From: Mariniphaga sp.
GTDB lineage: Bacteria > Bacteroidota > Bacteroidia > Bacteroidales > Prolixibacteraceae
Direction: 5' to 3'
Length of the DNA stretch: 64,000 nucleotides
Assembly: GCA_024636975.1 (NCBI GenBank)
Contig: JAGXGA010000030.1
Span: forward strand, 62,001-126,000
The notes under the pieces were generated by a model, which saw only the letters and a program-made list of their open reading frames with translations, did not search any database and had not been told where the DNA came from. How positions within the stretch are numbered: position 1 is the stretch's first letter; each line of letters opens with the position of its first letter. Positions 34,979 to 63,753 of this stretch are shown here, piece by piece. Made by a program: the position numbers and the translations under genes.

Positions 34979-36160
34979 TTATTTATTCAGTTCAATAGCT
35001 GCTAAAATTACCGGTCCCATTCCCTTGGGATCATTATCAATTTGTTTTTCTGAAATGTAATATTCATAATCTCCCATACGATAGGGATTTCCTCCAAGTC
35101 CGCAGGCACCGCATGTTTGAGTGAGCACCGGATATCCGTCATCGCCTTCCACCACAAGATTTTTAAACAGGCTTTCAAAAGCACTGTTTGCAACTTTGAA
35201 ATACTTTTTGGGCAGGTAACCTTCTTTCGCTCCTTTGGCATAAGCATATATAATCATTGCAGAACCCGAGGCTTCTTCATAATTTCCTTCCCGTCTGCCC
35301 ATATCCAGTACCTGGAACCATAAGCCGGTTTCTTCATCCTGAACCTTTAAAAGTGCCTGGCTGAGGCTATTCAGGATCCGGATGATAGCCACTCTTTCAG
35401 GATGATCTTCCGGTAGATAATCCAGTACATCAACCAGTGCCATCATGTACCACCCGGTAGCGCGGCTCCAGAAATGCTTCGACTGCCCGGTTTCCGGATT
35501 GCTCCAGCGCTGCTCCCTGCTTTCATCCCATGCATGATATATCAGCCCTGTTTCAGGGTCGAGGGTTTTTTCGTAAATCAGTTGTATCTGAAAGGCAACT
35601 TCATCAAACCATTTCGGTTCATTGAACATATAAGCATACCGCACCAGGAAAGGGGAAGCCATATATATTCCGTCGAGCCACATCTGCCACGGATAACTTT
35701 TTTTATGCCAGTATCCATTTGATTTTGTTCGTGGATGGTTCTCCATCTGCGAAACCAACGTCTCAACAGCTTTCTTGTATTTTGGATTACCTGTCCGTTC
35801 ATAAAGCGTTAGCATATTAAGTCCGGGCCGCACCCGGTCGATGTTGTAGTCGGTAAGTTTATACCCATGAATGGTTCCGTCTTTCTGCACAAAGTAATCG
35901 ATATACGCCTGCATGTAATCAGAATACTTTTGATCGTATTTTCCAAGCCTGTCAATGGCAGAGCCTAATAATGCATAATCATATTCATATTTGGGTTTTT
36001 CGCGATCGTAATAAATAAGACTGTCACTACGATGCAGCACTGCATCGGCAAGTTTTAGAGCCCTTTCAGGTTTTTTTTCGCTTTCAGTCTTTTGCCTGAC
36101 AGAATTAAACCCAAATGCCAGGGTAGCTGTCAGAAGAATCAATATTTTATGGTGTTGCAT
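34979..36160 (-). CDS. Unsaturated rhamnogalacturonyl/uronyl hydrolase, GH105
   Basis: Removes the 4,5-unsaturated uronic acid left on oligosaccharides by polysaccharide lyases. The 393 residues form an alpha/alpha-barrel of the GH88/GH105 clan: MLTLYERTGNPKY, PWQMWLDGIYMASPFLVRYA with the catalytic Asp163, YHAWDES, FWSRATGWYMMALVDVLDYLP, EASGSAMIIYAYAKG, and a glycine-rich CGACGLGG near the end. The N-terminus has one hydrophobic stretch (about 6-18) without a clear cleavage motif. It heads the second SusCD locus on the - strand and could also act on products of the pectate lyases in the first locus. Confidence 0.9.
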   Translation of the reverse strand: MQHHKILILLTATLAFGFNSVRQKTESEKKPERALKLADAVLHRSDSLIYYDREKPKYEYDYALLGSAIDRLGKYDQKYSDYMQAYIDYFVQKDGTIHGYKLTDYNIDRVRPGLNMLTLYERTGNPKYKKAVETLVSQMENHPRTKSNGYWHKKSYPWQMWLDGIYMASPFLVRYAYMFNEPKWFDEVAFQIQLIYEKTLDPETGLIYHAWDESREQRWSNPETGQSKHFWSRATGWYMMALVDVLDYLPEDHPERVAIIRILNSLSQALLKVQDEETGLWFQVLDMGRREGNYEEASGSAMIIYAYAKGAKEGYLPKKYFKVANSAFESLFKNLVVEGDDGYPVLTQTCGACGLGGNPYRMGDYEYYISEKQIDNDPKGMGPVILAAIELNK

Positions 36161-36425
36161 AATCTTTATTTGTTAGTTTGCCGGAAAAGTTCATTTTTTT
36201 CTGCACATCGGCAGGCTCCTGACCTATTTATCCATCTGTACTTTAAAAAACAATGAAACTTAAAGTTAATTGAAATCTAACGTTTTAACAAAAATAGAAC
36301 TTTAAAATAAAAATCTTCGTTACAGGTAGTCTATCCGCAGAAAAATACCAGGTAAAAATAAGTTTGTTACAATCGTAACAATAATCCGGCTATGTAAACA
36401 ACCGGATTAAATGAGTCATTCTACC

Positions 36426-36565
36426 TACCTTCTCCGGTGCAAACTCAATGTAAATTCAATATAAACTCAATATTAACTCAATGTAAACTCAATTAGAGTT
36501 GAATTTACATTGAGTTATTACTGAATTAATACTGAGTTAAGATTGAGTTTAGTATGGAGAAAGTA
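36426..36565. repeat. 140-bp palindrome built from ten 11-bp units (copy 1)
   Basis: From 36442 there are five direct 11-bp units close to AACTCAATNTA, then from about 36497 five units in the opposite sense close to TNNATTGAGTT. The outer arms TACCTTCTCC (36426-36435) and GGAGAAAGTA (36556-36565) also pair, and every arm shares the same centre at 36495.5. The inner stem is GTAAACTCAA/TTGAATTTAC with a 6-base loop. It lies in the 668-bp gap between divergent genes (GH105 and a propeller lipoprotein). A second copy lies at 63594-63733. Confidence 0.9.
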
Positions 36566-36828
36566 TAGATTTTTAATGATGAAGAACCTATTTGTTTAGC
36601 TGCTTGCATTAATTGCTGCTAATTTAAGATAAATCAGACTATCCGGGACTTTTTATTTCGTCAATAAATACCTGATTTTTTTACTTAGGGGGAATTGACA
36701 TTTTCCCTATATCATTCTGAGATTATGGTTTTTTTCTATTTTTAGCCTTTCCAGGGAAGAGGAGCTCCTGGAAAACGAGTTGAGTTTATTGTAATCTATT
36801 AACTATTACCTTTTAATGTTTTTACTAC
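36566..36828 (+). other. Leader region of the propeller lipoprotein gene
   Basis: No coding frame was seen here or in 36161-36425. TATTTTTA (36737-36744) is a one-mismatch -7 element, without a good -33. Downstream, TTTCCAGG (36748-36755) pairs with CCTGGAAA (36767-36774) to make a small hairpin near the expected 5' end of the mRNA. Both calls are tentative. Confidence 0.35.
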
Positions 36829-38109
36829 ATGAGAAATTATTTGTTACTATTCATTTTTATTTCGATTTCGGCAGGGTGCATCAGGCAAAATAACTGGAAT
36901 CAATACCTTGGACCAAACAGGAATGTCATTGCAGATGAAGTGAAAATTTCAGGAACATGGCCTGAAAAGGGTCCTTCAAAATTATGGGAGGTTTCATTGG
37001 GTCCTGGTTACGGAGGTGCAAGTATATACGGTAATGAGGTATTTGTTTTGGATCGGATTGAGGAAGAATCGGATGTTTTAAGATGTTTCGATCTGGCTAC
37101 AGGCGAAGAAAAATGGAGTTTTAAATATGAGGCCGAGGGGAAAATCCCATTCCCGGGATCACGCACTGTGCCTTATGTCGATAAAGATTATATCTGGACC
37201 GTTGGTCCTTTGGGTGATTTTTATTGTTTCAGTAAAAAGCAGAAAGCGCCGGTATGGAACCTGAACCTAAAAGATGAATTTGATGCGGAACTTCCAAACT
37301 GGGGATTTTCACAGTCTCCTTTAGTATATGATGATTTAGTGATTGTTGCACCCCAGGGTAGCAAAGCCGGTGTGGCAGCATTCAATAAAAAAACAGGGGA
37401 GATTGTATGGCAAACCCGTCCTTTAACCGGTCACAACTTTCATGTATCTCCTGTTAGTGGCCGTTTTGGGGGTATCGACCAGGTGGTAATGATTAGCCCA
37501 TACAATCAGAGAGATTCACTTCAAATGCATGAAGTTGTTGGTTTTGATATTAAAACTGGAAAAGAGCTTTGGAAATATGAAGGATTAAAATCGTTTGCAA
37601 CCATTTCTCCTGCTACGGTAATCGATGACAGTCGACTATTCCTGACCGACTGTTCCTATAATGGAAACTATAATCCGGTTTCCATTCTTTTGGAAATTGC
37701 TAAAGATGAGAACGGGTTTAATGTAAAGGAAGTTTTCAAGACCGAGGAAGCAGGTTGCAAAATGCATCCCGCAGTATATTTCCAGGACCATCTGTACCTT
37801 AACACCAACGGCAGGCCCAATCAGATGGTCTGCATGACAATGGACGGCGAAGTAGTTTGGGAATCGGGTTCGGCTGCCAATTTTGAAATGGGAAGTTTAA
37901 TAATGGTTGGCGGGTTAATAATCAATCAGAATGGTAAGAGCGGCGAAATTCATCTTATTGAGCCTTCACCGGAAGGCTACAAAGAACTCGGGAAAGCCTC
38001 ATTTTTTAGTTCCGATAAATCGCAGGCATGGGCTCCTATGGCATCAGCCAGGGGAAAGCTGCTTGTGCGGGACATGGAAAAACTGGTATGCGTGAATTTG
38101 GTTGATTGA
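36829..38109 (+). CDS. PQQ/BamB-like beta-propeller lipoprotein
   Basis: 426 residues with a lipoprotein signal (Cys17 in SAGCIRQNN); the residues after the Cys are not acidic, so it should face the periplasm. The body is made of PQQ-type blades with the W-K-x-x-T-G pattern: LGPNRNV at the start (common in this group), CFDLATGEEKWSF, AAFNKKTGEIVWQT, GFDIKTGKELWKYEG and MDGEVVWESGS. Proteins of this class are often annotated as outer-membrane assembly factor BamB or as alcohol dehydrogenase-like; neither role is supported by the context. It stands alone between the palindrome and a bidirectional terminator. Function unknown. Confidence 0.85.
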   Translation: MRNYLLLFIFISISAGCIRQNNWNQYLGPNRNVIADEVKISGTWPEKGPSKLWEVSLGPGYGGASIYGNEVFVLDRIEEESDVLRCFDLATGEEKWSFKYEAEGKIPFPGSRTVPYVDKDYIWTVGPLGDFYCFSKKQKAPVWNLNLKDEFDAELPNWGFSQSPLVYDDLVIVAPQGSKAGVAAFNKKTGEIVWQTRPLTGHNFHVSPVSGRFGGIDQVVMISPYNQRDSLQMHEVVGFDIKTGKELWKYEGLKSFATISPATVIDDSRLFLTDCSYNGNYNPVSILLEIAKDENGFNVKEVFKTEEAGCKMHPAVYFQDHLYLNTNGRPNQMVCMTMDGEVVWESGSAANFEMGSLIMVGGLIINQNGKSGEIHLIEPSPEGYKELGKASFFSSDKSQAWAPMASARGKLLVRDMEKLVCVNLVD

Positions 38110-63578: not shown

Positions 63579-63593
63579 AAGCCACATTTACTA

Positions 63594-63733
63594 TACCTTC
63601 GCCTGACTAAACTCAATGTAAACTCAATATAAACTCAGTATTAACTCAATGTAAATTCAATTTTGATTGAATTTACATTGAGTTATGATTGAGTTATAAC
63701 TGAGTTAATACTGAATTACCATCGGAGTTAATC
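63594..63733. repeat. 140-bp palindrome built from ten 11-bp units (copy 2)
   Basis: Five direct units near AACTCAATNTA (from 63610) are followed by five inverted units. The start TACCTTCGCC (63594-63603) and the GGAG at 63724-63727 occupy the same offsets as in copy 1 (130 bp apart in both). The inner stem GTAAATTCAAT/ATTGAATTTAC (63651-63676) is perfect with a 4-base loop. By hand, 108 of 134 positions agree with copy 1, without gaps. The outer right arm no longer pairs well. It lies between convergent genes. Confidence 0.9.
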
Positions 63734-63753
63734 CAGCAAATTACCTGGGAATC

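Follow-up and report, generated by a model that had tools for sequence, protein, structure and literature searches.

Evenly spaced, two-fold symmetric arrays of 11-bp units along chromosomes of Prolixibacteraceae: a set of putative protein-loading sites

The window analysed here is a 64,000-nt stretch (contig C51:62001-126000) of a Mariniphaga genome of 5.76 Mb in 67 contigs, called G000 below. At 36426-36565 it carries an imperfect palindrome of 11-bp units between divergent ORFs, 34979-36160 on the minus strand and 36829-38109 on the plus strand, from whose starts (36160 and 36829) it is separated by 266 and 264 bp, respectively. Its inverted arms, 36426-36492 and 36499-36565, show 78% complementarity across their 67 nt. 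From left to right, the element comprises an outer arm TACCTTCTCC (36426-36435, plus strand), a half-array of units AACTCAATGTA, AATTCAATATA, AACTCAATATT, AACTCAATGTA and AACTCAATTA (36442-36495, plus strand) with start-to-start spacings of 11, 11, 11 and 11, a dyad whose two-fold axis passes between bases 36495 and 36496, a half-array of five reverse units (GAGTTGAATT, TACATTGAGTT, ATTACTGAATT, AATACTGAGTT and AAGATTGAGTT; 36496-36549, minus strand) and an outer arm GGAGAAAGTA (36556-36565, minus strand). Outer arms were assigned from the sequence and inverted-repeat analysis, half-arrays from the sequence, its repeats and TRF, which found period 11 in each half, and the dyad from the centring of copies. 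The whole dyad-symmetric array spans 36403-36588, an outer limit derived from 111 arms of its family (family A, below) and not from the window copy alone. A first-pass annotation, made from the letters, had described a palindrome of phased 11-bp units with one centre located between divergent genes; its description of the sequence was correct, and both architecture and position were borne out by the analyses above. A second copy of the same family was detected about 27 kb from the first, between convergent ORFs, at 63590-63737 (C51:125590-125737) by covariance model, TRF and pattern scan.

Folding z-scores of the window copy are -9.23 and -10.82 for the two strands, and when a pattern of two units was scanned across the window with 3 mismatches or fewer allowed, 13 matches appeared (those in the second copy among them) where 0.15 would be expected. 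Together with the 143 or more covariance-model matches in the same genome described below, these values exclude chance. No Rfam family reached its gathering score anywhere in the 64-kb window. The ORF 36829-38109 beside the palindrome is PQQ-repeat-like by reading of its sequence. Judged by the pntB gene, the nearest named relatives are two Mariniphaga records. In Mariniphaga sp. KA03, the closest named relative, this gene is not at the corresponding place: the interval between pntB and a hydrolase-like gene is occupied by another frame, which reads as PAS/kinase-like, and no palindrome was seen there. The site is therefore not comparable between the two genomes.

BLAST with the window element returned at least 80 matches in G000, on both strands (40 candidates scored). 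A covariance model (R1), built from an alignment of 20 copies (A1), gave at least 143 matches at no fewer than 73 places among the best 150 of 4638 candidates. Sixty-seven of these places (L051-L117) are of the window's type, family A, with the core TTGAGTT/AACTCAA, and six (L118-L123) carry variant cores such as CGAATT/AATTCG. E-values with R1 were weak at two of the latter, L122 (0.016) and L123 (0.81); in a phased-unit scan the same two scored 29 and 34, whereas no score of 12 or higher arose in shuffled DNA. A search with L120 revealed a second subfamily at 19 or more further places (21 of 51 candidates scored), and two more copies (C38:225173 and C48:70571) emerged when gap regions totalling 400 kb were scanned. 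The family thus has at least 94 members (73 + 19 + 2) in this genome.

The majority of the 73 places measure 126-148 bp. Lengths of the R1 matches cluster at 148, 137 and 126 bp, with one full unit missing at 14 places (137 bp) and two at 2 places (126 bp), 16 of the 73 in all, and copies therefore differ by whole 11-bp units. The first-pass annotation would have taken the palindrome for a local duplication without function had no other copies existed and the phasing not been conserved; the many copies, and their differing by whole units, show the opposite. Seventy of the 73 copies overlap no ORF of 90 codons or more, with ORFs defined by a simple length rule rather than by a gene finder. The gene context is tandem for 36 copies, divergent for 19 and convergent for 16, the remaining 2 lying at contig ends. 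Orientation relative to tandem genes is random (14 same, 17 opposite). Similarly, no bias was observed relative to GC skew (P 0.79), hence no replication-strand preference, or relative to neighbouring copies (15/31).

In family A, the unit T-T-G-A-n-T-T is kept at the same phase in both arms, with approximately 1.5-2.0 bits, while the spacer between cores drifts, more strongly in one of the two arms. Conservation includes the outer arms (TACCTTCTCC/GGAGAAGGTA type) but, still in phase, continues outside them. In a profile of 111 of 132 family-A arms (L104 was left out, being too near a contig end), positions G75, A77, G79, T80, A81, G86, A88, A90 and C92 were conserved with P <1e-5 each, and the isolated position A143 also passed this threshold. 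In-phase conservation thus extends to about 92 bp from the dyad and defines an element of about 186 bp; the 111 arms show no sharp end, conservation fading outward. The proposed 11-bp phase over ten units and across the dyad is accordingly confirmed and reaches further than had been described. The two arms of an element are not equivalent. Clustering by k-means, with two types imposed, was applied to 117 of the 134 arms of L051-L117 (17 being out of register), and 43 of the 51 elements with both arms paired one arm of each type. Arms within one element also differed more than random pairs (10.88 vs 9.04+-0.29). This asymmetry resembles the state of a founder from which copies reached many places, and thus implies past dispersal.

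The copies are evenly spaced along the chromosome. For 92 listed places, a set without the two extra gap copies, the 56 within-contig gaps have a mean of 42.9 kb and a coefficient of variation (CV) of 0.46, against 0.89+-0.10 for uniform placement on the same contigs; none of 5000 randomisations was as even. Only 4 gaps are below 20 kb (21.1+-3.2 expected), the smallest within a contig being 13.5 kb, and on contig C50 the gaps are 35, 33, 39, 28, 30 and 37 kb. The subfamilies interleave along the chromosome. Among the places listed, the largest gap is up to 94 kb. Three large gaps were scanned: C38:155-325 kb and C48:37-131 kb hold one further element each, and no further element was found in C14:1-86 kb.

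A search for further copies in this and related genomes had been advised by the first-pass annotation, and it succeeded for the own genome only. No DNA match to the window element was obtained in 39 relatives of G000, among them three congeners, and none to the covariance model in 11 of these 39. The trait is patchy, the window's family being absent from the 3 congeners examined. A search of the genome_contigs collection (84,980 species, from which the own genome may have been left out) with the exact core pattern was negative, the window element had no match in plasmid or phage collections, and exact core patterns of family A and of the families F1 and F2 introduced below had none in viral contigs.

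Palindromes with a tandem period of 7-16 were also sought by a sequence-blind scan. In gap regions of G000 itself, 3 of 5 hits had period 11. No period-11 palindrome was seen in 400 kb of a congener (G003) or in the surroundings of one gene at 80 loci of relatives (1.29 Mb), where 10 of the 15 hits had period 7; nor was any seen, with a different scan threshold, in five further genomes at 61-80 kb each, lengths at which power is limited. As a separate observation, relatives carry long arrays of degenerate 7-bp units (GTCTTGA/GAATCTG and GTAAACA types; L250:12676, L268:16882, L284:13278, L397:5915 and L400:4952), some with partial inverted symmetry, 7 being the commonest non-11 period in the scan. 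These might be analogous or a quite different repeat class.

The same scan of 200 kb of G013, a complete single-contig genome of 4,465,088 bp from another genus of Prolixibacteraceae, gave four hits, all of period 11, and none in shuffles. The G013 units are unrelated in sequence to those of G000. A first family, F1, with GGGTAACNNAA-type units, occupies at least 67 places (own model R2, best 150 of 1101 candidates), three of them weak (E 1e-4 to 0.016). It carries a TA step at 11-bp intervals across the dyad (alignment columns 26, 38, 48, 59, 70, 81, 92 and 103) with one or both letters near-invariant. A single F1 gap is below 27 kb; it measures 13.5 kb and involves a weak hit (E 1.1e-4). Two of the three largest F1 gaps were examined for other fillers, and four elements of a second family, F2, were found inside, all of period 11 with scores of 1.87-2.07; other new hits in these gaps scored at most 1.58 and shuffles at most 1.44. 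F2, with CATGGTTTGTC-type units, is present at 38 or more places at E <1e-15 (40 of 48 candidates scored). Two weak F2 matches (E 0.08 and 0.15) were left out of the map, one of which would, if real, lie about 4.6 kb from an F1 element.

Taken together, F1 and F2 comprise at least 105 elements in G013 with a mean gap of 42.5 kb and a CV of 0.40, whereas random placement gave 0.99+-0.09 and no case as even in 10000. Gaps below 15 kb numbered 3, against 31.0+-3.9 expected, and 95% of the chromosome lies within 30 kb of a site (75% for random sites). Even spacing, which goes beyond anything claimed by the first-pass annotation, is a property of both genomes (CV 0.46 vs 0.89 in G000, 0.40 vs 0.99 in G013). 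Moreover, only 2 of the 38 F2 elements are within 15 kb of an F1 element, compared with 16.9+-2.9 when the F2 map was rotated (P 0.0019), and the mean F2-to-F1 distance is 37.5 kb compared with 22.2+-2.4 kb under rotation (P 0.0012). Two families unrelated in sequence thus avoid each other on one complete chromosome. Spacing alone is no proof of function, because random placement with exclusion also fits (CV 0.49 for an exclusion of 20 kb and 0.34 for 25 kb; observed 0.40). The sole gap above 82 kb in the combined map, G013:C1:1607911-1726361 (118 kb), may correspond to the replication terminus, to an island or to a third family that escaped detection.

F2 matches were obtained in 4 of 12 genomes tested, namely all four tested of G013's genus; place counts in G041 (40 of 71 candidates scored) and G042 (40 of 46) are lower bounds. 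Among the 36 F2 places listed in G042, a single contig of about 5.2 Mb, no gap is below 27.6 kb, while 5.6+-2.0 gaps below 25 kb were expected (P 0.0017). In G041, 2 of the 17 listed within-contig F2 gaps are 19-22 kb. F1 matched 2 of 61 genomes, G013 and G022, the latter of yet another genus, and none of three congeners of G013. The 18 F1 matches of G022 lie on 13 short contigs, and spacing there can therefore not be judged.

About 94 evenly placed arrays in one genome, with a version of different spelling in a related genus, suggest a chromosome-landmark system that has gone undescribed rather than a chance repeat. We propose, with a probability of about one half, that they are DNA sites of two-fold symmetry, distributed over the whole chromosome and acting as putative protein-loading arrays. 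Dyad symmetry, one core per helical turn and an exclusion of 20-25 kb point to protein loading at the dyad and to sites that would serve tens of kb. Each site would lie between genes and comprise some 8-10 or more units of 11 bp, each spanning one helical turn, arranged about the dyad. A putative sequence-specific protein may load at the array centre and oligomerise outward on one face of the DNA, so that each array would serve some 20 kb in both directions in organising or segregating the chromosome, much as matS, SlmA or Noc sites do in other bacteria. Another site in the vicinity would then be redundant and would be lost. Lineages with different unit sequences would presumably have different or co-evolved putative readers. 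The reader protein itself, like the function and time scale of the arrays, is something that we infer.

The presence of the core TTGANTT in both arms without pair covariation, phased conservation beyond the outer arms and copies that are mostly ORF-free and randomly oriented argue for such loading arrays; the patchy distribution, gaps of 60-118 kb and the founder-like arm asymmetry count against them. Of the options raised by the first-pass annotation, an array of sites for an oligomerising protein fits best, with the core in both arms and no covariation beyond shuffles, the binding itself being putative. In a fuller and tentative form, for which we would give somewhat less than even odds, the arrays would constitute an accessory chromosome-organising system of some Prolixibacteraceae: some 90-105 arrays per chromosome, kept about 40 kb apart by exclusion, in which arrays of unrelated sequence would be functionally interchangeable and each would be read by an oligomerising protein specific to its lineage.

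The main rival, and the strongest, is that the arrays are relics of a MITE-like non-autonomous transposon with long-range target immunity, the spacing having been left after decay and serving no present function. We consider it unlikely. Such relics would agree with the founder-like arm asymmetry (43/51 elements), with the random orientation of copies and with patchy occurrence such as that of F1, found in G013 and G022 yet not in the three congeners of G013 (2/61 genomes). Random placement with a 20-25 kb exclusion also matches the spacing. A long-range precedent is offered by cis-immunity of Mu, which in vivo peaks at about 5 kb and weakens from 5 to 25 kb (PMC7350765). However, no coherent target-site duplication was observed in 51 family-A elements, for ends 60-110 bp from the dyad and lengths of 2-9, or in 26 F1 elements. 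The best excess for family A was a 2-bp match (12 vs 4.0, one of several thousand combinations), with duplications of 4 bp or more in at most 3 cases (0.75 expected), and for F1 it was 4 vs 0.9; old duplications could have eroded. A transposon would further sit uneasily with constraint that lies outside the arms and fades outward with no sharp end, and with the presence of F2 in 4 of 4 genomes tested of one genus. Exclusion between families with unrelated units would also be unexpected from end-specific immunity, unless ends are shared.

Nor was a partner element seen. The 73 copies, taken with their flanks, are bare arrays. A transposase search of G000, which covered the Y1 family, gave 7 matches, 1 of them within 1.5 kb of a copy. 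The window element had no plasmid or phage match, and the A, F1 and F2 cores no viral-contig match. The non-autonomous repeat option of the first-pass annotation survives only as relics of an immune element, while no duplication, sharp end or partner was seen in its favour. Two other repeat classes were considered and rejected: REP/RAYT, for arrays that are mostly 126-148 bp, not 20-40 bp, with a single Y1 match of seven near a copy, and integron attC or clustered arrays, for copies that are dispersed with a smallest within-contig gap of 13.5 kb. As to the individual Y1 matches, the one at G000:C18:8045-8386 is about 1.3 kb from the second-subfamily array L122 (G000:C18:6583-6708), and the other six are not near listed arrays. 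A GC-rich imperfect palindrome with a 12-bp period at G000:C14:62397 (L186:2697) stands outside the 11-bp families; it may be coding, because it is about 100 bp from the Y1 match C14:62107-62292, which is in a 1251-aa open frame.

Alternatively, the arrays could be strong DNA gyrase sites, about 140 bp of two-fold phased sequence wrapping on two GyrA C-terminal domains and regularly placed for topological domains; we hold this to be improbable. DNA gyrase is, as far as is known, universal, whereas the arrays are patchy. The E. coli gyrase motif is given in PMC6379681 as 130 bp, symmetric and with a 10.75-bp GC periodicity in both flanks, and the size and symmetry of the arrays make this explanation attractive (PMC6379681 and PMC12393610). 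We analysed GC phase in 43 of the 67 family-A copies, 20 loci of family B (L144 visibly mis-centred) and 26 of 30 F1 loci; F2 values were excluded for inconsistent centring. The GC period of clean arms was 11.00 for family A and 11.25 for family B, and the near-invariant TA-step letters of F1 every 11 bp across the dyad also speak for wrapping on gyrase. In contrast, the best GC period of F1 was 9.25 or 12, the GC phase relative to the dyad differed between the G000 families (4.6-5.5 bp) and F1 (2.7-4.0 bp, weak), and core conservation of 1.5-2.0 bits is as in direct readout. Phasing of the gyrase type is thus present only in part.

The RNA-hairpin option of the first-pass annotation, here taken as a long hairpin of RNA (or single-strand DNA) under selection for base pairing with A-form turns of 11 bp, appears very improbable, although the window copy is predicted to fold very stably (z -9.23 and -10.82). 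In 39 of 43 oriented elements (alignment A3, without L095, L097, L103 and L115), pairing is found in 83.7% of cells (83.9% in shuffles), and the covariation score is 0.114 in both. Wobble-sense concordance was 291/429, where 281 was expected and up to 304 arose by chance. Copies moreover occur in all gene contexts and in both orientations. We set this option aside for want of covariation in oriented copies, of a consistent wobble strand and of an orientation bias at tandem genes. An apparent anti-pairing signal (82.8% vs 85.2% in shuffles) vanished once copies were oriented by arm type; the two founder arm types explain it, and no active avoidance of pairing is claimed. Finally, a local chance duplication without relatives is refuted by the roughly 94 copies in the genome and by further families in other genera.

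If the arrays are functional as loading sites, they would be landmarks of chromosome organisation visible in the sequence, in a bacterial group where, to our knowledge, little is known of such organisation, and domain size and site redundancy would be directly testable. If instead an immune transposon left them as relics, they would document clearly how target immunity has shaped a genome. Judged by titles and the first lines of abstracts, in a literature incompletely covered, no description of such evenly spaced arrays was found. We know of no repeat class with an even whole-chromosome spacing common to families of unrelated sequence. In our view the arrangement is new in kind; the mechanism is not yet so rated.

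Among known systems, the parC centromere of plasmid R1 (ParMRC) resembles the window array in having ten tandem units of 11 bp that form two sets of five. It is one plasmid site, whereas the arrays are chromosomal, number dozens and have their sets inverted about a dyad. All repeats of parC reportedly run in one direction, with a promoter between the sets; the two inverted sets of the arrays depart from this unidirectional arrangement. MITEs and REP/REPIN/BIME elements are similarly palindromic, intergenic and present in many copies per genome, REPs being 20-40 bp (PMC3733652). The arrays differ from them in their even spacing, their lack of sharp ends and the absence of a detected target duplication. 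The E. coli gyrase motif, about 130 bp, symmetric and helically phased, bears a partial likeness to the arrays; it is described in PMC6379681 as a degenerate GC pattern and not a series of tandem units, and a GC phase is not common to the array families.

A parallel in distribution is with matS/MatP, SlmA and Noc sites, which are dispersed over the chromosome and bound by a dedicated protein. PMC3116907 describes SlmA sites as 12-bp palindromes, 50 in E. coli, and places MatP sites in Ter and SlmA and Noc sites outside Ter. Many dispersed, non-randomly distributed sites are also what we observed for the arrays in G000, G013 and G042. The arrays differ from these sites by their size (about 150-186 bp), their extension over the whole chromosome, their mutual exclusion and their exchangeable unit sequence.
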